64,000 bases of DNA from Nocardia sp. NBC_00508. Its GTDB lineage: Bacteria; Actinomycetota; Actinomycetes; Mycobacteriales; Mycobacteriaceae. The notes beneath the pieces are model-generated. The model searched no databases, was not told the origin of the DNA, and saw nothing but the letters and a program-made list of their open reading frames with translations. How positions within the stretch are numbered: position 1 is the first letter of the stretch; every line of letters starts with the position of its first letter. The stretch covers positions 6,820,001 through 6,884,000 of the forward strand of contig NZ_CP107852.1 in NCBI RefSeq assembly GCF_036346875.1, in the 5' to 3' direction. Positions 4,652 to 26,551 of the stretch are shown piece by piece. Made by a program: the position numbers and the translations under genes.

Positions 4652-6631
4652 TTACCCGCCCATGTCGCTTCTCGAATTCTGTTGTGTGCGGTTGATCAGG
4701 GCTGCCGTATCGTCGAGTTGGCGTTGCAGCACGGACCGGTGGGTGGAATCGGTTGCGAATACTGAACACGTCAAGCATGCATTTCCCTTGTCACAGGACT
4801 GGAGTGGCGGCAGCAGGCACCAGCCGTTGGGCAGGAACCGGTCGGCGCGGTCGAACAGGTGCATGCTGTCGTGGTCGTCGCGGGAGAACTGGACGCGGGT
4901 GCCGTCGGCTTTGAGTTTCACCGTGGCCAGGAACGCCTGCTCAGCGTGCTGTTCGCGGGCGGCGATGTAATGCATGGTCATGGTCGGGGTGGCGTGCCCG
5001 GCATAGCGTTGCAGCACGTGGATCGGCAGCCCGAGTTCGGCCAGCCGGGTCAGGCGGGTGTGCCGGAATCGGTGAGTGTGGCTGAGCCGGACCGGGCGGC
5101 CCTGGCCGTCGGTGATCTGCAGCAGATCGCCGAATCGGCGCAAGATCCAGGCGTAGCTGCCGTAAGGGTAGGGCTTGTCGCCGTTCCGGTTGCCGCTGCG
5201 CTGCATGAACAGGAATCTCGGTTGCTGGTCGGGGAACCGTTCCCGGATCCAGCGGCGCTGTTCCTCGATGACCTCGACGACCTCTTGGTCGACCAGGATG
5301 GTGTCGGGTGCGACGTCGATCTTCGATTGCGCGTAGTGGAACCGCGCGATCTGATCGCCATCTGTGCCGGTGACGGTGCTGGCCGGTGGAGCCGACAGAC
5401 AGTCGAAGGCGCAGGTGCGGATTTCGCTGGAGCGGCGGCCGGTGAGGATCTGCAGCAGGATCATCCGCATGGCTTGCGGGTTGTTCAACCCGTCCGCGGT
5501 GATCTGCGTTCGGTCACCGCGTGTGATCGCCATCTGCTCGTCGCGGGGCAACCCGATGACTGGCAACGCGGCGGTGATCTGGGCCAGCGCATGGTCGTCG
5601 ACGTAGTGGGCGTCGTTGAACTCGCGGGTGTGAGGAATCCGTGTGACCTGGGCGAACCAGCTGGCCGCGTGCGCGGGAGTGATCTGGTCCCAGGGCGAGG
5701 GACCGAGCATGGCGCGGGTTTCGCTGGGATTGGCGGCGATGAAGTCCATCAGCTCCGCCACTGCCCGCAGGTCGTCGTTGACCAGGCGAGGATGAACCTT
5801 CTTGCTGAGATCGCGCTGGTCGCCCGGGTAACGCAGCCGGTTGCGCGGGTCCGCCGCCCAGCGCTGGAACTGTGTTGCCTGGCCAGCCGCGACCGCTGGG
5901 TCGCCGAGCATCGAGGTCGGGTCATCGACGCATTCGGTGAGCCAAGTATCGAAGCGGCGCCAGCATTTCAGTCGTTCCTGACTGACGGTGCTCCAGCGCA
6001 GTGTCCCGGCCTCCAGCGCGGTCCCCAGATACCACTTCACCGCAGGACGCAGCCAGGGCTGGGTGATCTGGCCCGGGATGGCGCCGTAATTGGCCTGGGG
6101 TTCGCGCTGTGACAGTGGAATCCGCGGATCGCAACGGGGATGCCAGTAGTCCAGCTCCCACCAATGCCCGTCGTGACAGCGGGCCAGCAGGGCAAGCCGC
6201 GCGAATCGGAACAGGATGCGCAGCCGGGCGCGCACGCCCTTGTTCGTCATCCGTCCCAAGCGACTGGCGTAATACCAGCCCTGCAGTGTTGATGCTGTCT
6301 CCCAATCCATTTCACGGATCGAGAGCGGGAACGGATGGTCCTTCTTGATCGCGTGCCGGACGATGCCAGCCAGATGATTGATCGCCAGCACCGAGGACCG
6401 GGTGCCGTCCTGGGCCTGCCAGTGCGCCATCCACGCCAGTTCGGCAGCCATCAGCTCCGGCAGTCCGGTCAGGATGATGTTGTGGTCCTTGAGCTCGGTG
6501 AACGCCTCCCAGTTCTCGACCTCGGGACCGATGACCGACCCCTGCCAGGCGCCGGGCAGCTCGCGCCAGAGTCGCCAGATCGGATCGACATCGTCGACCG
6601 GGCGCAGGAACGGCGGCTGGGTCGTGTTCAC
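4652..6631 (-). CDS. tnpB: Tyrosine recombinase TnpB of the Tn554-like element, C-terminus frameshifted
   Basis: A large tyrosine recombinase. Catalytic elements visible are the first Arg (TGRRSSEIR), the H-R box (HRFRHTRL) and the His and Tyr nucleophile region (RYAGHATPTMTMHYI). A cysteine cluster follows near the end (LQSCDKGNACLTC), as in Tn554 TnpB. The GTG start at 6631 overlaps the tnpA stop (GTGA), with AGGTG upstream. The frame ends at 4652 with NSRSDMGG, but the neighbouring frame continues a plausible C-terminus (EFEKRHGR, then MPEDNVWLAHRRAEQQALTR) to 4473, right against tnpC. A 1-nt indel near 4680 is likely. All catalytic residues lie before it, so activity may survive. Confidence 0.82.
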   Translation of the reverse strand: MNTTQPPFLRPVDDVDPIWRLWRELPGAWQGSVIGPEVENWEAFTELKDHNIILTGLPELMAAELAWMAHWQAQDGTRSSVLAINHLAGIVRHAIKKDHPFPLSIREMDWETASTLQGWYYASRLGRMTNKGVRARLRILFRFARLALLARCHDGHWWELDYWHPRCDPRIPLSQREPQANYGAIPGQITQPWLRPAVKWYLGTALEAGTLRWSTVSQERLKCWRRFDTWLTECVDDPTSMLGDPAVAAGQATQFQRWAADPRNRLRYPGDQRDLSKKVHPRLVNDDLRAVAELMDFIAANPSETRAMLGPSPWDQITPAHAASWFAQVTRIPHTREFNDAHYVDDHALAQITAALPVIGLPRDEQMAITRGDRTQITADGLNNPQAMRMILLQILTGRRSSEIRTCAFDCLSAPPASTVTGTDGDQIARFHYAQSKIDVAPDTILVDQEVVEVIEEQRRWIRERFPDQQPRFLFMQRSGNRNGDKPYPYGSYAWILRRFGDLLQITDGQGRPVRLSHTHRFRHTRLTRLAELGLPIHVLQRYAGHATPTMTMHYIAAREQHAEQAFLATVKLKADGTRVQFSRDDHDSMHLFDRADRFLPNGWCLLPPLQSCDKGNACLTCSVFATDSTHRSVLQRQLDDTAALINRTQQNSRSDMGG

Positions 6632-7818
6632 TGGTTCACCTGCCAGCCCGCAGCATAGGACTTCCAGTTCGCCGCTGCCCGCAACGCCTCGTCTTCGCAG
6701 ACCCATCCGTAAAAATCGAGAGTGGTCTGAACATGGGCATGACCAAGCCGACGCGCTACCACCCAGTCCGGCGTCCCCGCCAGCAGAAGCGCAGACGCGT
6801 GAGAATGCCGGAACCAGTGCGGCGTCCAGTCTTTCGGTCCGATTCCTTTGCGCCGCAACGCGTTAACTTTGTCCCGCACCGTCCCTTCCCGCAACGGCGC
6901 CAGCAACGGCGGCCGATCCAGATTCACCAGCAGTGGCGAGTCGACCGTCACGACCAAGCCGAGACTGGTCGCGCGACAAGCCAAATAGGTCAGATAGTCG
7001 GCGAATAGCCGTTCCAGGTCAGTCCCGACATAGACCCGGCGGGGCCGCATCATTTTCACCCGTGCCCCGTTCTCGTTGTCCTCGCGCGGCACGATGTCGA
7101 CGAACGCGGTGCCGCCTCGGCCCAGCACGAAATCACTGATGGCAAGCCCCAGCACCTCACCCAGCCGTGCGCCTGTCTCAGCAAGGAGCGCGAACAGCAG
7201 TCGGTCCCGAAGGTTTCCTGACCAATCCCCGGTGACCGGGTCGACGACGGCACAGCCGTCGAGGATGGCCTGGATCTGCTGCGGCAGCAGGATCGGCTGC
7301 CGACCATAGTGACGCTGACGGCGCACCCGAACCAGCGACGACGGCGCCGGCGCCGAGCGAGAATCCAGATGCGCCAGCAGCCCCCGTGCCGGCATCCGTC
7401 GCGGCGTCCCCCGCAGCAAACGCCCGGCGACGGGAACCTCGAACACGTCCTGCTGCCAGCGATAGAACGAAATCAACGCGGCCAGGCGGGCTTCCAGCGT
7501 CGTCGCCGACGGCTGTTCCTCGGCGGGGACCAGGCGGTGTTCGACGGTGCGGCCGTTGCGCAGCCACGACAAGAACCCGGTCACCGCCGGGACGCCGACC
7601 TCCTGCCACTGGCCGGTTTCGTCGCGGTGCTCGAGGAAGGTCCACCATTGCGCCAGCGCGGTCGCATACCCGCGGACCGTGTTCGGCGACCACAGATGCC
7701 GATGTGCTTCGATCCATTCCTCGACCGGGCCGACCGTCCGATATTCGGCGTCGACCACCGTCCATGTTCGCGCGCCGCCGGACGGGCGCACCGCAATCCC
7801 ATAGGCCACCAGAGCCAT
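6628..7818 (-). CDS. tnpA: Tyrosine recombinase TnpA of the Tn554-like element
   Basis: A 396-residue phage-integrase-family recombinase. The N-terminal SAM-like domain (SPNTVRGYATALAQWWTFL) binds core sites. The catalytic domain shows the first Arg (TGARLGEVLGL), the H-x-x-R box (HWFRHSHA) and the C-terminal His and Tyr (RRLGHAHVQTTLDFYGW). It works with TnpB and TnpC to move the element through a circular form without copying. It is the first gene of the tnpABC operon, transcribed inward from the right end. The ATG at 7818 has only a poorly spaced GAGGGA, so a nearby alternative start is possible. It looks intact. Confidence 0.88.
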   Translation of the reverse strand: MALVAYGIAVRPSGGARTWTVVDAEYRTVGPVEEWIEAHRHLWSPNTVRGYATALAQWWTFLEHRDETGQWQEVGVPAVTGFLSWLRNGRTVEHRLVPAEEQPSATTLEARLAALISFYRWQQDVFEVPVAGRLLRGTPRRMPARGLLAHLDSRSAPAPSSLVRVRRQRHYGRQPILLPQQIQAILDGCAVVDPVTGDWSGNLRDRLLFALLAETGARLGEVLGLAISDFVLGRGGTAFVDIVPREDNENGARVKMMRPRRVYVGTDLERLFADYLTYLACRATSLGLVVTVDSPLLVNLDRPPLLAPLREGTVRDKVNALRRKGIGPKDWTPHWFRHSHASALLLAGTPDWVVARRLGHAHVQTTLDFYGWVCEDEALRAAANWKSYAAGWQVNQ

Positions 7819-7838
7819 TCCCTCATCACGTTGTTGAA

Positions 7839-7931
7839 GCCCCGCTGATAAGCAGGCAACAACGACAACCGCTGCCCGCCATAGGTCTTCGTCGTGAACA
7901 TCGATGAGGACGGGTCAGGCCCCGCTGATAA
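7839..7931 (+). repeat. Two 13-bp direct repeats at the right end of the Tn554-like element
   Basis: GCCCCGCTGATAA occurs at 7839-7851 and again at 7919-7931, the second copy forming the transposon end. The repeats flank the 80 bp just outside tnpA. Repeated short sites at one end fit recombinase-binding arm or core sites of a tyrosine-recombinase element; this role is inferred. Confidence 0.6.
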
Positions 7932-8460
7932 CGCCCGGCACAGGCAAGACGCATCTGGCGACCGGGCTCGCGCGGGCGGCCGCGCACGCTGGCTACCGCA
8001 CCTACTTCACCACCGCCGCCGATCTAGCGGCCCGCTGTCACCGGGCGGCGATCGAGGGCCGTTGGGCGACCACGATGCGCTTCTACGCCGGTCCGGCGTT
8101 GCTGGTGATCGATGAACTCGGCTACCTCCCCTTACCCGCCGAGGCGGCATCAGCGTTGTTTCAGGTTGTGTCGCAACGCTATTTGAAGACCTCCATCGTG
8201 ATCACCACAAACCGGGGTGTCGGATCCTGGGGCGAGATCCTCGGCGACAACACCGTCGCGGCAGCGCTGCTGGACCGCTTGCTGCATCGGTCGATGGTCA
8301 TCAACCTCGACGGCGATTCCTATCGGCTGCGTGATCATCAGGCCACCGCCGACAACCTCCGTCGCGCCACGACCGGGAACCGGCAGCCCCTATAATCAGG
8401 ACCGCTCATGGGTGGGGCGTTTCGACGAGCCCGGTTGGGGAGATTCGATGAGCGCAGTCA

Positions 8461-8954
8461 TCATCGGAACCGGCCGCTCCGCGATCGGCACTCTTGTCGA
8501 GCGGACCACCCGGTTCACGGTCCTGGTCCACCTGCCACGCGAACATGAATGGGGCAAATCGGCACCGGTGAAGAACGGTCCCGCGCTCAGCGGCTACGGG
8601 GCACTGTCTATGAACAAGGCGCTGGCGGCGGCCTTGAACAGGCTCCCGGCACCGATGGTGAAGTCGCTGACCTGGGACCGAGGAAAGGAAATGTCCGCGC
8701 ACTCCGCGCTGACATCGAAGACCGGTGTCGCGGTCTTCTTCGCCGATCCCCACAGCCCATGGCAGCGCGGGACCAACGAGAACACGAATGGCCTTCTGCG
8801 GCAGTACTTCCCGAAGGGAACGGACCTATCACGGTGGACCGGAAAGGACCTCGCGGCCGTCGCGCACACACTCAACACCCGCCCGCGAAAGACGCTCGGA
8901 TGGCGCACTCCCGCCGAAGCAATGGAGCAACACCTACAATCGCTTCCGGTATAA
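8461..8954 (+). pseudogene. IS30-family transposase, 3' part only
   Basis: The frame beginning directly at the IS21 right end encodes the C-terminal half of an IS30 transposase: IGTGRSAIGTLVERTTRF after the missing first catalytic Asp, then LTWDRGKEM with the second Asp, and NENTNGLLRQYFPKG with the catalytic Glu. The N-terminal DNA-binding half is absent, so it is inactive. After the stop, a terminal-repeat-like sequence (GCGTTGCGACGACCAGTTG) runs to about 8983, where an IS3 orfB resumes. The element was thus inserted in an IS3 copy and later cut by the IS21 element. Confidence 0.8.
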
Positions 8955-8983
8955 GAGCGTTGCGACGACCAGTTGAATCCGCC

Positions 8984-9613
8984 CTGCGACCCCGCGTCGC
9001 TGTGATGGATCAACCCCTCGGCGACGGTGTGGCCGTCGTGGTCGCGTCTCCACAACGCCATCTTCAACGCCGAAGTAATCATCGCGGTGTCCTTGATCGT
9101 GGCAGCCTGCCAGCCCACGATGGAACGGGAGAAACAATCGATCACGAACGCCACGTATACGAACCCAGTCCAGGTGGGCACGTAAGTAAAGTCGGTGACC
9201 CACTTGCGATTTGGCTCGATTGCGGTGAAATCGCGGTCGAGAAGGTCTGGGGCGCGCCGGTGGTCGGCGCCCTTACCGGCGATGGTGGTGCGGTGCCTAG
9301 CGCCACGGATCACACCGCACAGTCCTTCGTCGCGCATGAGCCGGTTTATGGTGCCGATGCCGACCCGGTAGCCCTGGCGACGCAGATATGGGGTCATCTT
9401 GCGGCGCCCATACATTCCCTCAGGAGTGCCGATGGTGGCGCGCAGCGCGTCGGTCAGATACGCGTCGGTCACCGTCCGGGCCGAAGCAGGGGTGGTTTTC
9501 CAGTTCCGATACGTGCGTCCGGCGACCTGCACGCCTTGCTCGGTGAGCACGCGGCAGATCGGATCGACCCGGTAACCCTGTGCACGCATTTGATCGATGA
9601 ACTGGCAGATCAA
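8984..9613 (-). pseudogene. IS3-family transposase OrfB, truncated by IS30
   Basis: Encodes the N-terminal two thirds of an IS3 OrfB: the HTH_21-like region (GTPEGMYGRRKMTPYL), the first catalytic Asp (KWVTDFTYVP) and the second (HHSDAGSQ). Homology ends right after that second motif at the IS30 end, so the catalytic Glu is lost. It overlaps orfA by 4 nt, as expected for OrfAB produced by programmed frameshifting. The missing 3' part should lie beyond the other end of the IS30 copy but is not in this window. Confidence 0.82.
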
Positions 9614-9921
9614 CGGCGGCGCGGGTCGATCTCCCGCGCGAAGAAAATTGAGGCCGCTTTCAGAATCTCGTTGGCCTCCTTCAGATCTCGGACTTCGCGT
9701 TCGAGTTCCTTGATCCGCGCCTGCTCCGCGCTCGTCACACCGGGAGCCTTCCCGGTGTCGATCTGGGCTTGCTTCACCCAGACACGCAGTGTCTCGGCGT
9801 GGATGCCGACTTTCGGTGCCAGCGCCTGGCAGGCGGCATACGCCGACGCATAACCGTCGAGTCGGTCCAGCACCATCTTCACCGCACGCTCACGCTGCTC
9901 GATCGGATAACGCTTGGGCAT
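9610..9921 (-). CDS. IS3-family OrfA
   Basis: A 103-residue DNA-binding subunit with an IS3/IS911-type helix-turn-helix (ERAVKMVLDRLDGYASAYAA, then GIHAETLRVWVKQAQ) and a C-terminal leucine-zipper-like helix (ARIKELEREVRDLKEANEIL). Start at the ATG of MPKRYP. The outer end of the IS is near 9972, where the minus strand begins TGAACCGCCCCGACTTTC, typical of IS3 ends. The gene is intact but its partner OrfB is broken, so this copy cannot transpose. Confidence 0.82.
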   Translation of the reverse strand: MPKRYPIEQRERAVKMVLDRLDGYASAYAACQALAPKVGIHAETLRVWVKQAQIDTGKAPGVTSAEQARIKELEREVRDLKEANEILKAASIFFAREIDPRRR

Positions 9922-9972
9922 GGCCCACATCCTTCACAGAGAAGGAAGCGGCCAGAAAGTCGGGGCGGTTCA

Positions 9973-10758
9973 GTGGCCGCCCACAGCGGATGCGGGGGAA
10001 GCTCAGCCGGACCGAAACGACAAACGCTGACCCGCGAGAAAACAACACTCGAACGCTGGCACGCCGTCCACAACCTGCTTGACCAAGGTGTCGGGCTGCT
10101 GGACTGCGCCCGCCGGCTCTGCCTGAGCCTCAACACCGTCAAGCGTTACGCCCGTACTTCCGAACCCGACCAGCTGCGGCGTCCGCCCCAATACTGGGCC
10201 TGCCTGGTCGACCCCTATCGCGATCACCTGCCCACCCGTCGCGCCGCCGAACCCGGCGTCCCGGTTCTGCACCTGCTCAACGAGATCAAAGCCCTCGGCT
10301 ACACCGGCAGCATCAACCTGCTCCACAAATACCTCAACCAAGGCCGCGCCGAGAGCGACCGGATCGCGCCGTCACCGCGGCGGTTCACCTCCTGGATCAT
10401 GACCCGGCCTACCGACCTGTCCGACGGCCACCGCACCCACCTCGACGAACTGCTCGCCGCCTGCCCGGAGATGACCGATTTGGCCAGGCTTGTCGCCGAT
10501 TTCGCGCAGCTGATGACCGAGCGCCGCGGCAGCGACCTTGATTCATGGATGAAGCAGGTCCGCGAAGCGCGGCTTCCGGAACTCGATCCCTTCCTGCGCG
10601 GTCTCGACCAAGACCGCGACGCTGCGGTCGCTGGCCTCACCCTGCCTTACAGCAACGGCCCCGTCGAAGGTGTCAACACGAAAACCACACTGATCAAACG
10701 ACAAATGTATGGTCGCGCTGGTTTTCCGCTACTACGGCATCGCATCCTTCTGGCCTAG
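9973..10758 (+). pseudogene. ISL3-family transposase, 3' part only
   Basis: Begins at the outer end of the IS3 element, in frame, with the zinc-finger-side linker (SAGPKRQTLTREKTTLERW). It continues through the HTH region (LDCARRLCLSLNTVKRYAR) to the conserved C-terminal block with the catalytic Glu (GPVEGVNTKTTLIKRQMYG, then LLRHRILLA). The N-terminal zinc finger and first catalytic residues are missing. A right terminal repeat (CCGAAAGTGCACCAGAGCC) ends at 10789. This is the oldest recognisable layer of the stack. Confidence 0.8.
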
Positions 10759-10892: not shown

Positions 10893-13800
10893 TCAGCTGA
10901 GCGCCACGGTGTTGGTGTCAGCCCGAACATCGAAGGTCTCGGACCGCAAGAGATGCACAGCTTTCCAATCGATTCCTGTCGGAGCCACAGCAAGGGCACC
11001 AGCGAGCAGACCGAGGCGGGCAGAGCGCACGGCTGTGTCGTCGGTCATGACAAGTACGTCGTCAAAGAAGGTTCGCAGACCATCAGCCAGTGGCATGGCG
11101 CTGGCAACCCAGTCCGGCAACGAGGTGGCGTGGGTGCGACGCAGGGTGGCGATAGCGTCAATGAGCCGCTGTTCAGCTGGTTCGGTAAGTCGACGTGTGT
11201 CGCAATCGGGCGGCGTGCCCGGCGGCAAGATCCGAACGATGCGCTGAAGTCCTTCCACCAGCTCGACAAAACGTGGACCGTGGATGTTGCGGGCTTGGTC
11301 GATCTCGGCGCGCAATTGGTCGGCGCGGCGGGGATTTCCTGCCGCAGGCCGGACTGCATCGATAAGAGGCACGGGGATACTCTCGTCGCGGAGTCGTTGT
11401 TCGTAGCGGGTGATGAGCAGGTCTTCGGCGGTGTCGAGGACCGCGGTGTCGACAGCGACGCCTTGGCTGCGCAGTGCCTCAGCCGCAGTGTCGAGCACCT
11501 GGCGATAGGTGAGCGTTTCGAGTACAGGGTGTGCGCGCAGGATTCGGACTATGCCCAGGGCGGCGCGGCGCAGCCCAAACGGATCCGAGGTTCCGGTGAG
11601 CTTGGCACCGACGGCAAGCATCGCAACGAGCAGGTCGAACCGGTCGGCAAGGGCCAACAGGGCTCCGGGCAGTGTGGCGGGCAGTCGGTCGCTGTGATGC
11701 CGCGGAAGTTCGGTCTCGAGCAGTGCTTCGGCGACCGGGGCGAGTTCTCCTGCTTTGCAAGCGTATTCGCCAGCCATGGTGCCAGCGAGGGAGGTCATTT
11801 CGATGACCATCTGGGTTGCGAGATCGAACTTCACCAACTCCCCAGCCCGAGCAAGTGTTGTGGAGTCGTTAGCGGACAGAGAGATTCGCGTCGCGAGCTC
11901 TCGGCTAACTACAGCGATGCGGTCAGCACGGTCGCCCACGGAGCCGAGGCGTTGTTCGAAGGTGAGGTCCGTGAGACGGGCCCGGAATTCCTGCGGGGTC
12001 GTGTGCAGGTCGCTGTTCCAGAAGAATGAGGCGTCTTCGAAGCGTGCACGCAGCACCTTCTCGTTACCGTCTCGGACGACGTCAGGGTCGCAAGCTCCGT
12101 TGGCAACAGTGACGAACAATGGGAGCAGGTTGCCGTGCTGAGCGCGAACGGGAAGATAACGCTGGTGCTTGCGCATGACGGTGGTGAGGATTTGTTCGGG
12201 CAGCTCGAGGTACTTCTGGTCGAACTGGCCGAGAATCGCGAACGGTGTCTCCACCAGGTTGGTGATTTCGTCGATCAGATCGGTCTCGTTTTCGATCTCG
12301 ATCGTGCCGCTGTGGTGATTGGCCAATTCAGCAACGGCCTGGGTGAGGGTGTCCCGACGTTCGGCGACGTCGATGAGGATCCCTTCGGCGCGCATCACGG
12401 CTTCGTAGTCAGCAGCATGATTGATGCTGATCTCGGGTTGCTCGGATTGGCGGTGGCTGCGGGTGGTGCGTCCGGCGGCCAGTGCGCCAGCAGTGACCGG
12501 AAGCAGGGTGTCGTCGAGGAGGGCGAGCAGCCATCGGATGGGGCGGCTAAAGCTGAGGATCGGGTCGTTCCAGCGCATGTTCTTTTCCGACCGCAGCCCG
12601 GTCACTATCTGCGCAAGCATGGTGGTGAGGATGTCGGCTGCGATGCGACCGGGCCGCAGGGTCTCGACGGTGATGTGTTCGACACCGTTGACTTCAACTC
12701 GAGTCAAATCAGCTTCGGTGATTTGCTGGGATTTGAGAAATCCTTCGAGCGCTCGGGTGGGAGTGCCGTCGCTGTTGTATGCGGCGGCAGTCTTGGGACC
12801 ACGGCGGACTTGAATGCTGTCGGGCTCGCGGTCAGAGACGTCGTCTATGCGTACGACGACGCGGCGCGGGGTGGCGTCAACTCGGATCGGGCCGTGGTCC
12901 AGTGCGGTCTCGGCAAGCAGGCGAGTCAGATCTTGTTCCACGGCTTCGACGGTGGCGTCGACAACGTGCGGGGGCAGTTCTTCGGTGCCGATTTCGAACA
13001 CCAGCAAACCACCACGCGCCTGCTGTGCTGCAACCTCGACTGGCGTGGCGGCGAGCGGGAGAGGTTGGTGGATGCCACGCGGGTGACCCGCTTTGTCGCG
13101 CAGTTCGATCCACAGCTCGGCGACCGAACGGGATTGAGTCCGCATGGTCTGAAACCATTTCGCGCGTTCAGTGGTCGAGATGGCGCCGCGGGCGTCGAGG
13201 ACGTTGAAGGCGTGCGAGCTCTTGAGGATGAAGGAATGTGCGGGGATCGGCAGTCGCAGTTCGATGAGCCTGCCCGCTTCGCGGGAGTAGATGTCGAGCA
13301 GGGTTCGGGTGGCTTCGGTGTCTGCGTCGTCGAGGTAGTACCGCGACATCTCGTATTCGGATTGGCCCAGGAATTCGCCGTAGGTGACGCCCGGTGCGAA
13401 CAGGAGGTCTTTGAAGTGGGTGACGTTCTGTACAGCCATGAGGATGCGTTCGAGGCCGTAGGTGATCTCGACGGGGACTGGGTCTAGGGTTTGTCCGCCG
13501 ACCTGCTGGAAGTAGGTGAATTGAGTGATTTCCATGCCGTCGAGCCAGACTTCCCAGCCCAGTCCCCATGCGCCGATGGCTGGTTGGGCCCAGTTGTCTT
13601 CGACGAACCGAACATCGTGGGCGTGCAGGTCGATGCCCAGCACGGCGAGTGACCCCAGGTAGAGCTCTTGCGGGTTGCCGGGTTCGGGTTTGACGATGAC
13701 CTGGAACTGAGTGTGGGTTTGCAGTCGGTTCGGGTTCTCGCCGTAGCGGCTGTCGTCGGGGCGAACCGAGGGTTCGACGTACGCGACCCGCCACGGTTCG

Positions 13801-13976
13801 GGGCCGAGCACGCTGAGCAGGGTGGCCGGATTCATCGTTCCCGCACCGACTTCGGTGTTGAACGGTTGGGCGATCACACAACCGTGACCCGCCCAGTAGT
13901 TCTGTAGACGGAGGATCGCTTCTTGCATGGACAGGGTCGGCTGGGACCCTGCGCGGAACGATGCGTCGTCGGCCAT
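10893..13976 (-). CDS. glyQS: Glycyl-tRNA synthetase, fused alpha and beta subunits
   Basis: 1027 residues charging tRNA-Gly with glycine. Residues about 15-300 match the class II alpha subunit (GlyQ): NYWAGHGC, RYGENPNRLQ, RFVEDNWAQP, GLGWEVWLDGMEITQFTY and the motif 3 region EITYGLER. Residues about 325-1020 match the tRNA-binding beta subunit (GlyS): FEIGTEELPP, MRWNDPILSFSRPIRW, GNEKVLRARFEDASFFWN and DPFGLRRAALGI. All blocks look intact. The usual housekeeping enzyme of mycolate actinomycetes is the unrelated alpha2-type GlyRS, so this is likely an additional enzyme, either a resistance copy or a dedicated supplier of Gly-tRNA. It starts 9 nt after the radical SAM stop. ISL3 debris lies just downstream. 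Confidence 0.92.
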   Translation of the reverse strand: MADDASFRAGSQPTLSMQEAILRLQNYWAGHGCVIAQPFNTEVGAGTMNPATLLSVLGPEPWRVAYVEPSVRPDDSRYGENPNRLQTHTQFQVIVKPEPGNPQELYLGSLAVLGIDLHAHDVRFVEDNWAQPAIGAWGLGWEVWLDGMEITQFTYFQQVGGQTLDPVPVEITYGLERILMAVQNVTHFKDLLFAPGVTYGEFLGQSEYEMSRYYLDDADTEATRTLLDIYSREAGRLIELRLPIPAHSFILKSSHAFNVLDARGAISTTERAKWFQTMRTQSRSVAELWIELRDKAGHPRGIHQPLPLAATPVEVAAQQARGGLLVFEIGTEELPPHVVDATVEAVEQDLTRLLAETALDHGPIRVDATPRRVVVRIDDVSDREPDSIQVRRGPKTAAAYNSDGTPTRALEGFLKSQQITEADLTRVEVNGVEHITVETLRPGRIAADILTTMLAQIVTGLRSEKNMRWNDPILSFSRPIRWLLALLDDTLLPVTAGALAAGRTTRSHRQSEQPEISINHAADYEAVMRAEGILIDVAERRDTLTQAVAELANHHSGTIEIENETDLIDEITNLVETPFAILGQFDQKYLELPEQILTTVMRKHQRYLPVRAQHGNLLPLFVTVANGACDPDVVRDGNEKVLRARFEDASFFWNSDLHTTPQEFRARLTDLTFEQRLGSVGDRADRIAVVSRELATRISLSANDSTTLARAGELVKFDLATQMVIEMTSLAGTMAGEYACKAGELAPVAEALLETELPRHHSDRLPATLPGALLALADRFDLLVAMLAVGAKLTGTSDPFGLRRAALGIVRILRAHPVLETLTYRQVLDTAAEALRSQGVAVDTAVLDTAEDLLITRYEQRLRDESIPVPLIDAVRPAAGNPRRADQLRAEIDQARNIHGPRFVELVEGLQRIVRILPPGTPPDCDTRRLTEPAEQRLIDAIATLRRTHATSLPDWVASAMPLADGLRTFFDDVLVMTDDTAVRSARLGLLAGALAVAPTGIDWKAVHLLRSETFDVRADTNTVALS

Positions 13977-13985
13977 CGAGAGATC

Positions 13986-15383
13986 CTATCCGCTGATTCC
14001 GGTCACGGATTCGGCGCCTAGGCTCGGCATGCCCAACCCTGTGACCTGCTTGGGGGCAAAGAAACTGGGCAGGTGACAACCGCCGCGGCAGGCGTCGGCA
14101 ACCGCGCAGCCCGCGCAGGTGTCCCGGGTAGTGACCGCCTCGTGGACGCGCTTGGTCAGGGTTGGCCACAGCTCGGCGACAGGGTGGTCGGCAAGACGAC
14201 CGAAGTAGACGTTACTGTGCGGGCAGTTGCGCAGCTGCCCGTCGTAGCTGACGCTGGCCCACACCATTCCCGATTCGCAGTGGCCAGCGATTTGGGAGAA
14301 CCTCAGCGCCAGGGTGGGGTCGTCGGCGTGCAGCGGCGTGTCGGTGTCGCTGGTGCACAGCTTTTGTGCGCATGGCCATGCCACGGTCATGCCGGAACAT
14401 TCGGTGGCGGTGAGCTGGTCGATTTCTCGCATCAGCGGCAGGGTCACCGAGATCGGCACTCCGTATTGGTCGTCGTTGCGTCCGGTCGGGACGTAGCGCA
14501 TGACGCCGAATTCGCGGACGCCGATGCGGTGCACATCGCGGATGACCTCCAGTGCGCCGGCAATGTTCTCCTTGACGAGGGTGAGTTCAGCGACGACGTT
14601 GATGCCTGCGTCCAGCAGCAGCTGCATCGCGGTGATTGCCTTGTCGTAGGCGCGGGGATGTCCGGTGAGGTGGTTGTGCTGGTCGCGGTCGCCGTGGATG
14701 GACACCAAGGCGCAGCGCACATTTGCGGCCGCGAGCCGGGCGGCGCGGTCGGCGGTGATGAAATGGCCGTTGGTGAAGATGACTTGGTAGAGGCCGAGTC
14801 GGCCGCCGTGTTCGAAGATGTCCATCGCGTCTGGGTGTAGCAAGGTCTCTCCGCCGCTGTAGCGGATGACATAGCAGCCTTTCTCGGCGCATTCGTCCAG
14901 GATCGCAGTGGCCAGCTCGGTCGGGATGTGTTTCTCGGGCAGCTCACGCACCGCGATCCGTACGTCGCGATCCGACATTGTCGGGTCGATCTTCCAGACG
15001 TTGTAGCAGAAGCCGCAGTTCCAGTTGCAGACCGCGGTCAGCTCGATTTCCAGGCGCAGCGGGAAGTCCAATTCGGTGTCGAACCGTTTGTCGATCTCCT
15101 GTAGGGCTCTATCGTGCGGCGCGGCCTGTGCGGTTGCCGCAGTCGTCAGGGTGGTGACAAGGGCGTCGAGGTCGGCGGCGACGACGCTGGAGTCTGCGCG
15201 GTAGTGGTTGCTGACGGTGTCGATCACAGTCTGCCGGTCGGCACCAGAAAAGATCTGGGAGACCATCTGTTTGGCGACCGTGTTGCGCAGCCGGTGGAAG
15301 GTGCCCGACTTGGGATCGAATAGCAGGCCGAGGTCGGGCCGGTAACGCAATGTGGCGACCAAAGTTTCGATCGTGGCGGTCAT
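13986..15383 (-). CDS. Radical SAM/SPASM protein with PqqD-like N-terminal domain
   Basis: 465 residues. Residues about 9-80 resemble a PqqD-type peptide-recognition domain (LRYRPDLGLLFDP then SGTFHRL). The radical SAM core has C119xxxC123xxC126 (CNWNCGFC) for the 4Fe-4S cluster and the SAM-binding RYSGGETLLHP. The C-terminal part has SPASM/Twitch-like cysteines (PCAQKLC, HCESG, RNCPHSN, and CAGCAVADACRGGC). Such proteins usually modify peptides. The ATG at 15383 overlaps the stop of the 36-codon ORF (TGATG) with GGAGGG upstream. It is followed after 9 nt by glyQS, so the pair is co-transcribed. The substrate is unknown. Confidence 0.85.
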   Translation of the reverse strand: MTATIETLVATLRYRPDLGLLFDPKSGTFHRLRNTVAKQMVSQIFSGADRQTVIDTVSNHYRADSSVVAADLDALVTTLTTAATAQAAPHDRALQEIDKRFDTELDFPLRLEIELTAVCNWNCGFCYNVWKIDPTMSDRDVRIAVRELPEKHIPTELATAILDECAEKGCYVIRYSGGETLLHPDAMDIFEHGGRLGLYQVIFTNGHFITADRAARLAAANVRCALVSIHGDRDQHNHLTGHPRAYDKAITAMQLLLDAGINVVAELTLVKENIAGALEVIRDVHRIGVREFGVMRYVPTGRNDDQYGVPISVTLPLMREIDQLTATECSGMTVAWPCAQKLCTSDTDTPLHADDPTLALRFSQIAGHCESGMVWASVSYDGQLRNCPHSNVYFGRLADHPVAELWPTLTKRVHEAVTTRDTCAGCAVADACRGGCHLPSFFAPKQVTGLGMPSLGAESVTGISG

Positions 15384-15493
15384 CACGCGGCCCTCCGCAC
15401 AGTTTGAGGGGCCAATTGGTCGAGCAGCTTGCACACATCGGCGGTCACTTGCTCCAGTGGCGCACTGGATTCGGTCGACAAGGCGGCTGACAT
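15383..15493 (-). CDS. 36-residue ORF coupled to the radical SAM gene
   Basis: A small frame starting ATG TCA GCC at 15493 and ending TGA at 15383, sharing its last base with the ATG of the radical SAM gene (TGATG). It encodes a helix-prone peptide (MSAALSTESSAPLEQ then VTADVCKLLDQLAPQ and TVRRAA). Tight coupling and position suggest it is translated. It may be a precursor peptide, although it has no obvious leader-core boundary and a single Cys, or a worn-down C-terminus of a PqqD-like protein, whose last helix it resembles. An in-frame TGA stands directly before the ATG, and the nearest GAGG is about 17 nt upstream, so initiation is weakly supported. Confidence 0.4.
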   Translation of the reverse strand: MSAALSTESSAPLEQVTADVCKLLDQLAPQTVRRAA

Positions 15494-15522
15494 TCATATA
15501 AGCCGTGAACCTCAATCGGTGT

Positions 15523-18318
15523 TTACGGACACCATGAGGATTCGGGGTGCCTGGTGTCGCCGCAGATACCGACGATGTCAGGTGAGACTTCGCCCTGGAC
15601 GACCTGCAGAATAGCCACCGGCTTGTTCAACGGGACCTGTTGGGTGACGTCGCCCCCGTAATCGATTGTGCCGCTGACACCGTCGATCTGGCGGTGTACA
15701 CCCGTCGTAGGATTATGGATGCTGGTGATTTCGCGCCACACAGTCCCCGGCGTGACCGGATGCTCGATGGCACCGGTACGCAGGTAGCTGGTAGCGGTGA
15801 TCAAGACCTGTGCGGCGTCATAAGCCATTGCCGCACGACCATCCGGTGACCGGCCGTGCTCTGGGTCGGTCTCAAAGGGAAACAGGCTGTCGAGTCGCTC
15901 GTAGAAACTTCGCTCTGGGCCGGAGCGCTCTTTGATGGGGGGAACAACCGCGAAGGAGACGTAGTAGAAATCAATGGATCGATTGGCTTGGCGTTTAGGG
16001 GCAGCGGCAGCATAGCGACTGACGTCGTCGTCTCCGATGAACACTGCCTTGCTGGAACATTGGGCCGCGCTGGCGAGAAAATCGCCGAAGTCGGGCACCC
16101 CCCGGCCCGCGAAGAAAACGAATCCGTTGTATCCGCAGGCCTCCAGCCCAGCGGCGTTGGCCTTGCCCGCCGGAAACGAGTGCACAGTCGCCGCGAATCC
16201 CCGGCCCGTAAAAGCTTTCTTGACATCGCCGCTCAGCCCCGAACTGTAGGTATCCGACGGATCGTCGGAGTGGAAGATGCGAACCGTCCGTGGGACGTTC
16301 GTATTCGTGGCGTGGTTGTCGGCGAATGCCGCCGTGACCACTGCTTCGGTCTTGTTCGTGGGAGCAATCTGGAAGTACATCGGATGGCCTTCGGCAAGAC
16401 TCGGATCCGACAGGGTGGACGAGACCATGGGCAGGCCGGCCCGGCTGAGCTCTTGCACCGCATCCGCGGTCTGTCGGCTACTCATTTCGAGCCCGACGAC
16501 GCCGATCAGAGAGTCGTCGCGTCGTGCTAGATCGCCGAGTTGGCGGGCGACCGTGGCCGCTTTGCGCATTTCCTTGCCGCCGTTGGCGATCAGCACCCGC
16601 ACGATCGGATCGGCGTCGCCGGATTTTTCGAGCTGCTGTAGTTGGGCAACCGCCACCCCCTCCAGTGATTCCCGCGCTGCGGTAAGGCCGTCGGCGGTAC
16701 CATCCGCGGAGGTGAGCGCCTGCAGGACTGGAATCGTGATGTACGGCCGCTGCGGAAAGTTCTTGTGCTGCTGCTCGGCTCGCGCGTTTTGAACAGCAAT
16801 GACCTGCTCCACCTGCCGAGTGGTCGAATCCGGCGGATCGAACAAGCTGAATCCGCCATCGCTCACACCGATGCACTCCAACCCGCTGGTGTGCACCTGG
16901 TCGTTCCAGCTTCCGCAATGGCCGGACCGCCAATCGAACACATGCCCCGCGGCGGCGACCACCAGAATCAGGACACCGACGATCCGTACCCACCGGTTGG
17001 ATACCCACGGCGGGTGAACATCCGCCGGATCCGGTGCGAACTCGAACCTGATGCCCGGGTCATTCCGTGGCGGCGGAATGTGGATAGGCAGATACCATGC
17101 GATATCTCGACGTTCCCGCCGATATTTCAGCAAATGGTCTTGCCATTCCAGATAAGCCTGAGCGGCCTCCGCTGCAGGGCCGATATGGGGTTGAACGGCG
17201 GCAGTCCGACGCGGATCGAGTGGCATGGCTCTGCTGGAAGCGATGATCAGCAGCGGATCGAAGAGCCCCGTCTGGTTACGGACTTCGTTGATCAGATACA
17301 GCAGCCGGTCGCCACCAGCTCGCATCGCCTCGGTATCGAGCAAGAGCACGGAGTAGGTCATCCGGCGCGAGTTCACCACATCCCACGGAGCCAACCGATA
17401 GCCGCGTCGCAGATCTTCCAGGAAGGAGTTGACCAGCAGTCGCGCGACATACTCCGGGGCTTCACCCTGCCAGCCGATCAGCCGTTCGGCGAACCGAACG
17501 AAAGTGCCGGACATCTCGGGCGCGAGATGCGGTTGGCGCATGAACCATCGGTATCGGCCGGACAACAGCGGAACCCGGCCGGTCAACACCATCCGGAACA
17601 GGCCAGCTGCCGCGACGAACACCGACCACAGCGGAATCCTCCACCAGAGCCTGTCTCCCGCGACCTCCCGGTCGATCGTTTCCGCAACCATCCTGAGTCG
17701 CCGCATCAACCCTTGCTCACTGAGCAGCTGCCGAACGGTACTGTCCGGATCGCTGTCGTCTGGGTCGAGGGTGCTGTCCATCAACGTGTAGACCAGCGAG
17801 AACAGCGGGAATCGCAGCCGACGGCCACGCGCGTTGCTCGAGCTGATCAGCGAATTGCGCGCGTTGCCGAGCAGATCGCGGATCATCACGACATCCGCCT
17901 TCGACAAGCTACCGGCCTGCCACGGGCGTCCCTGGAAACCAGCGGATCCTGCCTGTCCGGGCTGATCGCCGTTGTCGCCGGCCCGGACGTAGGCATGCGG
18001 GACACCTGCACGCTTGGCGTTGTTGAGCAACCGGTTGACCGCAGCGGCCACGATGTCCGGGCCCGCGGGCTGGACCAGGCACAACATCGGCAAACCCTGA
18101 CGCTTCGATCGCTCATCCCGTGGGACCCGTCCGGTCCAGTAGGTGCTCGTATTCGTGGCGGTGAGTTTTCGTGGCCAATCACCGAAGCGCGGACGCTGAT
18201 ACAACGCACCGATCAGGCGGTACACATCGGCCGCCCCGGTGAACCCAGGAGGTCCTTCCGAGGTATGCAGAGCAGGCTGCAACGGGTTTCCCCCCGGCAT
18301 GACAGATTCTGTGTCCAT
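15523..18318 (-). CDS. Large protein with C-terminal periplasmic-binding-type receptor domain
   Basis: 931 residues from the ATG at 18318, which has AGGTGGGGG just upstream. The N-terminal half (~460 residues) has a strand like a Walker B (YSVLLLDTE) and a degenerate loop (PMLCLVQPAGPD) where a P-loop might sit, suggesting a decayed NTPase fold. A transmembrane helix follows (IVGVLILVVAAAGHVF). The C-terminal ~430 residues resemble type I periplasmic-binding receptors of the Leu/Ile/Val family: IGVVGLEMSSRQTADAVQEL, LPMVSSTLSDPSLAEG, TVRIFHSDDPSDTYSSG and MAYDAAQVLITA. No ABC permease or ATPase is nearby, so a sensor role is more likely than uptake. It ends 29 nt before the 36-codon ORF. Confidence 0.7.
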   Translation of the reverse strand: MDTESVMPGGNPLQPALHTSEGPPGFTGAADVYRLIGALYQRPRFGDWPRKLTATNTSTYWTGRVPRDERSKRQGLPMLCLVQPAGPDIVAAAVNRLLNNAKRAGVPHAYVRAGDNGDQPGQAGSAGFQGRPWQAGSLSKADVVMIRDLLGNARNSLISSSNARGRRLRFPLFSLVYTLMDSTLDPDDSDPDSTVRQLLSEQGLMRRLRMVAETIDREVAGDRLWWRIPLWSVFVAAAGLFRMVLTGRVPLLSGRYRWFMRQPHLAPEMSGTFVRFAERLIGWQGEAPEYVARLLVNSFLEDLRRGYRLAPWDVVNSRRMTYSVLLLDTEAMRAGGDRLLYLINEVRNQTGLFDPLLIIASSRAMPLDPRRTAAVQPHIGPAAEAAQAYLEWQDHLLKYRRERRDIAWYLPIHIPPPRNDPGIRFEFAPDPADVHPPWVSNRWVRIVGVLILVVAAAGHVFDWRSGHCGSWNDQVHTSGLECIGVSDGGFSLFDPPDSTTRQVEQVIAVQNARAEQQHKNFPQRPYITIPVLQALTSADGTADGLTAARESLEGVAVAQLQQLEKSGDADPIVRVLIANGGKEMRKAATVARQLGDLARRDDSLIGVVGLEMSSRQTADAVQELSRAGLPMVSSTLSDPSLAEGHPMYFQIAPTNKTEAVVTAAFADNHATNTNVPRTVRIFHSDDPSDTYSSGLSGDVKKAFTGRGFAATVHSFPAGKANAAGLEACGYNGFVFFAGRGVPDFGDFLASAAQCSSKAVFIGDDDVSRYAAAAPKRQANRSIDFYYVSFAVVPPIKERSGPERSFYERLDSLFPFETDPEHGRSPDGRAAMAYDAAQVLITATSYLRTGAIEHPVTPGTVWREITSIHNPTTGVHRQIDGVSGTIDYGGDVTQQVPLNKPVAILQVVQGEVSPDIVGICGDTRHPESSWCP

Positions 18319-24970: not shown

Positions 24971-26551
24971 CTTGAGTTTTAACCTCTGAGCTGGTGTTTT
25001 TATCCTTTGCGGCGGGGTCGTGGCCCGGCGGGTTTGGATGGTTTCTGGTTACCGGTGGTCTTGATGTGCACGTCGTAGCGGGGTGTCGGACGCTGGTTGC
25101 GGTGGCCGGCTGGTCGCCCGGGTACGGGACGGGAGGGTTTCGGTGCACTGGCGGGACAGGCTGCTTTCCGGCGGAGGTGCCGAAAGCATCGACGGACACG
25201 TGCTGGTGTAAGTCGTTGTGGGGCTGCGGGTTTCTCCCAGGGCCGCCGGATATCGGCGGTGAGTTCCCGTGCAAGGCGCAGCTGGGTGTAGGCGGCCAGA
25301 AGCAGCCAGGTCCATCTGTCCGCGGCGGCGGGGTCGCGGAGTTTGGGGACGTTCCAGCCGAGGGTTTGTTTGAGCATGCGGAAGGTGTGCTCGATATCGA
25401 ACCGCCGCAGAAATGCCTGCCACAGCACATCGACCTCGGCGGCATCCAGATCGATGACCGAATGCCACAACCACACCGGCTTGGGGGTGGCGCCGCTGGG
25501 GAGCCCGTCGACGGCGAGGCGGATCACAGTGCCTTCGAGCACCGGCAGCTTCCCGGCCTGGACAGTCCAGGATGATCGGTGAGTAAGCCTGGGGTGCAAG
25601 CGATTCCATGACCGTGCTGTGGCTGGTCCGTAGAGGCGGGTGTCGGTCGTGACGGCGGTATCGGGCTCACCCCAGGTCGCGGGATCGCCGAAGACGAACT
25701 CGCCGCCATGTCTGGGTGGGCGGCCGGTCGTCCCGGGCTGCCATGCGGGTACGCGGCGGCGCAGGACCCGGTCCGACCGCATCCGGCCCAGCACGGCCAC
25801 GGGCAGATCTGCCAGCAGGAACGCCAGCCGGGGTGCGTCGTAGCCGGCGTCGGCGACGATCCAGATCTCCGGATCACCCGGTTGCCAGTGCCCGGCCTCG
25901 ATCAGATTGCCGATCACGGTGCGCAACTGGTCCGCGGTGACCGTGGCGGCGTCGTCACCGGGTGCCAGCCGCACCGCATCCAGTGGCGCGGTCCAGGAAC
26001 TACGCCCCGATTCCAGGGCACAGACCACCGAGTACGGCCAGCCGAGAACCATCTGATGGGTGTTCTTGGCGCGCCCGTAGGTGTGACACAGGATTCGCTG
26101 CGGGCAGGTATGCGCTTCCGGCCGCAGCCAGGAGGTGATGTCCACCGCCAGCACCAGTCGGCCGTCCGCGGCAGCGGCACCGAGACCAGTGCCCGCCGCA
26201 ACCGTGCGATGTCGATCCGACCCCGCTCCAGCGCCGCATGCACACTGCCGTATCCCCGGCGATGCTCGCCGACCAGCGATAGCTCCGGCAGCGACCGCAC
26301 CGGCCCCTCCGCACACAACACCGCATCCACCAGATCGAACACTGCGTCCGCCCGCCGGGGCAGGCACCGATACAACTCCTGCCGGAACGCCGACAGCTCC
26401 CCGACCGCACCGGCGCATCCGGTGTCGTGCGCACTGTTCACCGAAGCCCTTGGTTATCGAAAGTCTTCTGTCGCAAGAAGACATGATCAACCAGGGCTTC
26501 ACCCATGATCACCCGGGTGCTAAAAACCCAGCTCAGAGGTTAAGATTCAAG
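24971..26551 (-). mobile_element. IS701-family insertion sequence
   Basis: Inverted ends of about 30 bp (left begins CTTGAGTTTTAACCTCTGAG; right, read inward, CTTGAATCTTAACCTCTGAG) are flanked by CTAG at 24967-24970 and 26552-26555, the 4-bp target duplication expected for IS701. The left CTAG is the junction made by the neighbouring IS630 right end, so this element arrived after it. Confidence 0.85.
25000..26441 (-). pseudogene. IS701-like transposase, frameshifted near the N-terminus
   Basis: The N-terminal part (MNSAHDTGCAGAVGELSAF to ALVSVPLPR) is in one frame. A shift near 26168 moves to the frame that carries the catalytic core: GRLVLAVDITSWLRP (first Asp), IWIVADAGYDAPRLAFLL (second Asp) and DIEHTFRMLKQTLGWNVPK (Glu). 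The C-terminus is basic. The shift lies just before the first catalytic Asp, so no complete protein is made unless the frame change is bypassed. Degraded copies of the same family occur at about 38.97 kb and 47.84 kb. Confidence 0.8.

Follow-up and report, generated by a model that had tools for sequence, protein, structure and literature searches.

Why does a Nocardia strain carry a second glycyl-tRNA synthetase (GlyRS) next to a radical SAM/SPASM enzyme? The question is raised by a stretch of 64,000 nucleotides (the window, C1:6820001-6884000) from Nocardia sp. NBC_00508, whose genome is a single contig of 7.72 Mb and whose genus agrees with the relatives of the window locus. Our preferred answer, to which we give a probability just over one half (about 0.52), is that the two genes come from a RiPP-type operon whose product inhibits GlyRS, that the linked GlyRS is an insensitive copy, and that the window keeps the 3′ half of this operon.

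Four minus-strand frames lie in tandem in the window, and the initial annotation had proposed them as a candidate operon. The most upstream of these, a receptor-like gene (15523..18318), is separated by 29 nt (15494-15522) from a 36-codon ORF (15383..15493), which overlaps the radical SAM gene (13986..15383, 465 aa) in a TGATG at 15383. A gap of 9 nt (13977-13985) then leads to the GlyRS gene (10893..13976, 1027 aa). This arrangement is exactly as first described, but judging from sequence comparison only the radical SAM enzyme and the GlyRS belong together. Their pairing is conserved, and neither the receptor-like gene nor the 36-codon ORF is part of it. The receptor-like protein had been put forward as the sensor of the system, an idea that we abandon because the protein is absent from every related locus. 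It belongs to no Pfam family, has a weak relative annotated as an ABC substrate-binding protein in Streptomyces, and is an unlinked neighbour that stands in the place of the lost upstream genes. The flanks of the locus (window 4652-10758 and 25000-26502) are rich in mobile elements: two tyrosine recombinase genes that overlap each other, pieces of IS30- and ISL3-like transposases, and a DDE transposase.

The window GlyRS is a full alpha-beta enzyme with both chains fused (alpha part at ~13098-13928, beta part at ~11352-13004, minus strand). It matches the Pfam alpha and beta models and passes the NCBIfam equivalog NF011499 with 1323 bits against a cut-off of 1244. The possibility that this is the only GlyRS of the host was rejected, since a separate alpha2-type enzyme is encoded at C1:1662245-1663603. 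The radical SAM enzyme has a firm radical SAM domain (66 bits in Pfam, core at ~14538-15047), a weak PqqD-like match at its N-terminus (~15141-15323, E 0.014), a weak SPASM match (E 0.027) and a Cys-rich C-terminal region. Twelve cysteines are invariant over 19 family members, the window enzyme included. The protein falls far under every NCBIfam equivalog cut-off (at best 87 bits against 525), and it does not pass the mycofactocin and PQQ family models (60 bits against 265 for MftC, 52 against 381 for PqqE).

Relatives were sought with the window radical SAM protein and a Geobacillus plasmid homologue that is 50% identical to it. When one genome per species was scanned, high-identity matches came from 15 Nocardia loci and one Priestia locus, and there were weaker ones besides. 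Among 150 Nocardia genomes there are 18 close copies of the radical SAM enzyme, that of the window included, and five distant copies at 36-38% identity, together carried by 22 genomes; some of these loci are near-identical, so that there are fewer independent cases than 18 + 5. The comparison set comprises 17 other close Nocardia loci, the five distant ones and four loci from Bacilli.

A GlyRS gene adjoins the radical SAM gene in 18 of 18 close and 5 of 5 distant Nocardia loci, although it is broken in one. Because this holds in all 23 Nocardia loci, the pairing is not due to chance, and the proposed tie between a peptide-modifying radical SAM enzyme and a second GlyRS of distinct phylogeny was borne out in genomes other than that of the host. 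As the host also has its own alpha2 enzyme, neither of the two outcomes that the initial annotation had named as refuting came about. Two different types of GlyRS are involved: the close radical SAM enzymes have a fused alpha-beta GlyRS as neighbour, the distant ones an alpha2 paralogue. The window GlyRS forms one clade with the GlyRS proteins of other Nocardia operons (support 100/100), and the tree of the cluster GlyRS enzymes agrees with the radical SAM tree in its main groups. These observations bear on the simplest alternative, in which the GlyRS is an accidental neighbour or the housekeeping enzyme of the host. Other Mycobacteriales do have an extra GlyRS of the fused alpha-beta type with no such radical SAM enzyme, as an accidental association would allow. 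Given the linkage in 23 of 23 loci, the two GlyRS types, the agreement of the trees in their main groups and the separate alpha2 enzyme of the host, we regard the accidental-neighbour reading as refuted, and the chance that either version of this alternative is correct seems negligible.

The fused enzymes of other Mycobacteriales (L099-L118) lie mostly in genomes that also have an alpha2 copy. Neither the radical SAM gene nor a precursor gene was found near the fused GlyRS of other actinobacteria, and these enzymes were rejected as cluster members. Five genomes (G010, G073, G101, G108 and G295) show no alpha2 GlyRS above the cut-off, and in these the housekeeping role may fall to the fused enzyme. 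A fused GlyRS 54% identical to that of the window is also encoded on a linear Streptomyces plasmid (NZ_CP109164.1, L035:12013-15021).

The related loci reveal what a complete operon contains: a precursor, the radical SAM/SPASM enzyme and, as its partner, either a fusion of a GST fold with a PqqD-like domain or another radical SAM enzyme. The second GlyRS is confined to the Nocardia loci. Close Nocardia loci run from GST-PqqD through radical SAM to the fused GlyRS. Many of these strains have additional upstream genes for APH-like, HalD/BesD-like, alpha/beta hydrolase, hexapeptide acyltransferase and GT25 glycosyltransferase proteins, as well as a 406-aa protein with no Pfam match. The HalD (PF23169)/BesD-like protein, encoded at L054:4258-5139 in a larger Nocardia cluster, represents an amino-acid halogenase family. 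In all five distant loci the radical SAM gene is located directly downstream of the alpha2-type GlyRS gene. After it come genes for another radical SAM enzyme and a TrmO-like protein, and one or two that encode PhyH-type Fe/2OG oxygenases. The TrmO-like protein, small and with a TrmO_N domain, recurs throughout the alpha2-type clusters L094-L098 (e.g., L096:12457-12870) and is unusual beside RiPP genes. The only components common to both Nocardia branches are the precursor, the radical SAM enzyme (rSAM1) and GlyRS.

Bacilli loci carry radical SAM, GST-PqqD and MFS transporter genes and have no linked GlyRS. A LadA-like flavin monooxygenase is encoded in three of the four (L061:13671-14990, L156:12190-13494 and L033:104-1426), with the Geobacillus plasmid pLW1071 among the carriers, and the native role of LadA-type enzymes may be to tailor the peptide product. 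The Bacilli form was found on one plasmid (pLW1071) and one IMG/VR contig, and in annotated phage records the radical SAM matches were all distant. Spread by phages or plasmids was considered and not adopted.

The precursor gene, which the relatives carry, was missed by the initial annotation because it is absent from the host genome. It encodes a peptide of 22-38 aa with a YxxPxV/I leader and a C-terminus of QC[N/D/H] or QCSF. The pattern Y..P.[VI]...QC is present in 16 of 18 close Nocardia loci, in all five distant loci and in all four Bacilli loci, the two exceptions being N. transvalensis and the window itself, and the precursor genes are preceded by ribosome-binding sites. Close Nocardia precursors have 28-30 aa (e.g., MSEHATTTAERGEYEAPKVETKSMISRQCD) and lie immediately before gst-pqqD, whereas those of Bacilli have 22-25 aa (e.g., MAKKEYKRPTVKSGKAPSLQCN) and lie immediately before the radical SAM gene. 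The peptides of the distant loci have 37-38 aa, end in Y.PP(S/T)V(E/D)TTENLPPQCSF and are encoded between the gene for the linked alpha2 enzyme (GlyRS2) and the first radical SAM gene. A variant, YEPPEIETKEMISRQCH, was read by eye in CNY236, and a further Bacilli genome encodes MTKTKKVYVKPTVKSATGPSMQCN. A regular expression run over 3.17 million residues recovered the peptides of the three groups and only a handful of stray matches. A degenerate DNA pattern of the precursor C-terminus matched 13 of 150 Nocardia genomes. Each of these is a carrier, each match lies beside the radical SAM gene, and the control gave zero matches.

Thus, in the relatives a precursor gene lies beside genes for modifying enzymes and for a leader-binding (RRE/PqqD) domain, and the system appears to be of the RiPP type, although the window copy has no gene-encoded precursor. 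The YxxP/YxxPxL leader motif is bound by the PqqD-like B1 proteins of lasso peptides (PMC12710340, PMC10368454). A profile of the GST-PqqD family matches the lasso B1 proteins TfuB1 and TbiB1, and its PqqD domain scores above the Pfam cut-off, whereas that of the radical SAM enzyme is weak. The predicted structure of GST-PqqD (pLDDT 80) matched ordinary GST proteins and offered no hint of function.

With these relatives in hand, the window copy can be read as an eroded one. The 36-codon ORF had been listed as a candidate peptide gene, but the C-terminal end of GST-PqqD from N. anaemiae, N. suismassiliense and N. transvalensis can be aligned with it in frame, and it is instead a 3′ remnant of gst-pqqD, of which it retains approximately the last 25 codons. 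Upstream of it, the receptor-like gene is found instead of the remaining gst-pqqD and precursor genes. No other gst-pqqD was found in the whole host genome. The precursor search gave no match in the window or in the whole genome, and relocation of the precursor gene was rejected accordingly. As encoded, the pathway is unable to run in this strain, where at most the GlyRS could still be protective. Both surviving genes, for the radical SAM enzyme and for GlyRS, are intact, and their dN/dS values against N. anaemiae (~0.12 and ~0.20, respectively) resemble those of intact clusters, so no relaxed selection was seen. Therefore, either the loss is recent or the genes are still in use. The two genes are equally well preserved, which does not single out the GlyRS as having been kept solely for resistance. 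Other relics exist. In N. transvalensis (L048/L093) the radical SAM gene is truncated and the GlyRS internally deleted, and genome G235 (L117) has only the tail of the radical SAM gene and a frameshifted GlyRS. In N. anaemiae, gst-pqqD carries an in-frame TAA (L038:9915-9917) about 27 codons before its usual end, and the other three genes (precursor, radical SAM, GlyRS) are undamaged.

We propose that in complete operons the YxxPxV leader would be bound by the PqqD-like domains of the radical SAM enzyme and of its GST-fold partner, or of the other radical SAM enzyme that stands in for this partner. Modification by the radical SAM/SPASM enzyme would follow in the C-terminal region around the invariant Cys (QCN, QCD or QCSF), and oxygenases and other gene products might tailor the peptide further in some lineages. 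The finished product would inhibit GlyRS, and the linked extra GlyRS would act as an insensitive copy that shields the Nocardia producer. That a spare GlyRS is linked in two unrelated forms suggests that glycyl-tRNA synthetase is what the product attacks. The genomic arrangement is that of target duplication, in that a second copy of an essential enzyme is linked to the cluster and the housekeeping copy lies elsewhere, on another contig in 3 of 3 distant-locus genomes checked. There is precedent in the extra AlaRS of the ascamycin cluster, AcmD, which is a more resistant copy (PMC12945691).

The linked alpha2 enzymes (GlyRS2) are 79-88% identical to Nocardia housekeeping enzymes. They share S79A, N290S, R317H and R408K at positions that are invariant in 23 housekeeping enzymes, and each has 7-9 changes at housekeeping-invariant positions, versus 0-4 when the housekeeping enzymes are left out in turn. 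N290S directly precedes the residue aligned with Arg311 of T. thermophilus GlyRS, which we take to be an active-site residue. These substitutions may also reflect lineage drift.

The extra GlyRS might instead feed Gly-tRNA to a biosynthetic step, for example one in which the peptide, or a small molecule derived from it, receives a glycine. Such steps are known, since the PEARLs AmmB3 and BhaB5 attach glycine, and AcmD itself makes Ala-tRNA for AcmF besides being resistant (PMC12945691). The TrmO-like tRNA methyltransferase domain in the alpha2 clusters would also suit a role of this kind. Nevertheless, PEARL, Fem/GNAT and CDPS-like domains are absent from the conserved cluster genes scanned, the two branches have only precursor, rSAM1 and GlyRS in common, and Gly-tRNA is already made by the housekeeping GlyRS. 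Both self-resistance and Gly-tRNA supply had been suggested initially. We favour self-resistance because two unrelated GlyRS types fill one role and no recognizable tRNA-dependent ligase is common to both branches. With so small a shared gene set, and with either GlyRS type able to serve, target duplication is a better fit than supply, which we consider unlikely.

Resistance through a linked GlyRS does not extend to all carriers. Bacilli carriers have an exporter and no linked GlyRS, and the notion that they are naturally resistant through an alpha-beta GlyRS is unsupported for Priestia, which has an alpha2 enzyme only. Therefore, this host would have to be protected by its linked MFS exporter or by making a different product. 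Carriers without a linked GlyRS would also be expected if the RiPP-derived product were a metabolite or cofactor that has nothing to do with GlyRS, with the linked enzyme serving, for example, to sustain translation when glycine or charged tRNA-Gly is low. Mycofactocin and PQQ demonstrate that short peptides modified by radical SAM enzymes can end as cofactors. Against this stand the patchy distribution (22 of 150 Nocardia genomes), the repeated decay and the mobile-element flanks, which resemble accessory metabolism, and recruitment of two GlyRS types would be left unexplained. We therefore doubt this explanation as well, and return to a GlyRS-directed product. Its boldest form, in which the operons form a RiPP class not described before, with a Cys-containing product that is lethal through inhibition of GlyRS and with resistance recruited twice in Nocardia from unrelated GlyRS types, is offered tentatively, with odds somewhat short of even.

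Self-resistance genes disclose drug targets, and the recurrent pairing of a RiPP family with a spare GlyRS of either type suggests a natural product directed against GlyRS. We found no such product, and no description of the radical SAM-GlyRS pairing, among the open-access papers searched. A direct test is feasible with the precursor, the enzymes and the predicted target as now defined, and the two GlyRS types provide matched sensitive and resistant candidates. The operons also offer a pathway context for LadA-like monooxygenases in Bacilli and for the HalD/BesD-like protein in Nocardia.

Some components have been noticed before. RRE-glutathione S-transferase fusions were listed by RRE-Finder in 2020 as candidate novel RiPP clusters (PMC7470986). 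The fusion protein is of a like kind, and some of the listed clusters have radical SAM genes. The text of that paper mentions no GlyRS, YxxPxV...QC precursor family or target. What appears to be new is the family of precursors, the linkage to GlyRS in two forms and the putative GlyRS target. Lasso peptide systems share the YxxPxV precursor motif and the B1-like profile match, but no lasso cyclase or B2 protease was recognized among the conserved genes, and the predicted core comprises only the last few residues. The radical SAM core, SPASM-like cysteines, PqqD-like domain and short precursor are reminiscent of MftC, PqqE and sactipeptide maturases, from which the window enzyme is set apart by its scores below every equivalog cut-off. 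As in the PEARL pathways to 3-thiaglutamate and ammosamide, a small peptide scaffold would be altered at its C-terminus and a tRNA link is conceivable, but a LanB-like peptide aminoacyl-tRNA ligase was not found among the conserved cluster genes scanned. Finally, self-resistance through an extra synthetase is exemplified by AcmD (AlaRS, ascamycin) and SbzA (IleRS, SB-203208) (PMC12945691). The system proposed here differs from these in having a glycyl enzyme, adjoining RiPP genes and two unrelated GlyRS types, and it resembles them in that the extra synthetase adjoins biosynthetic genes.
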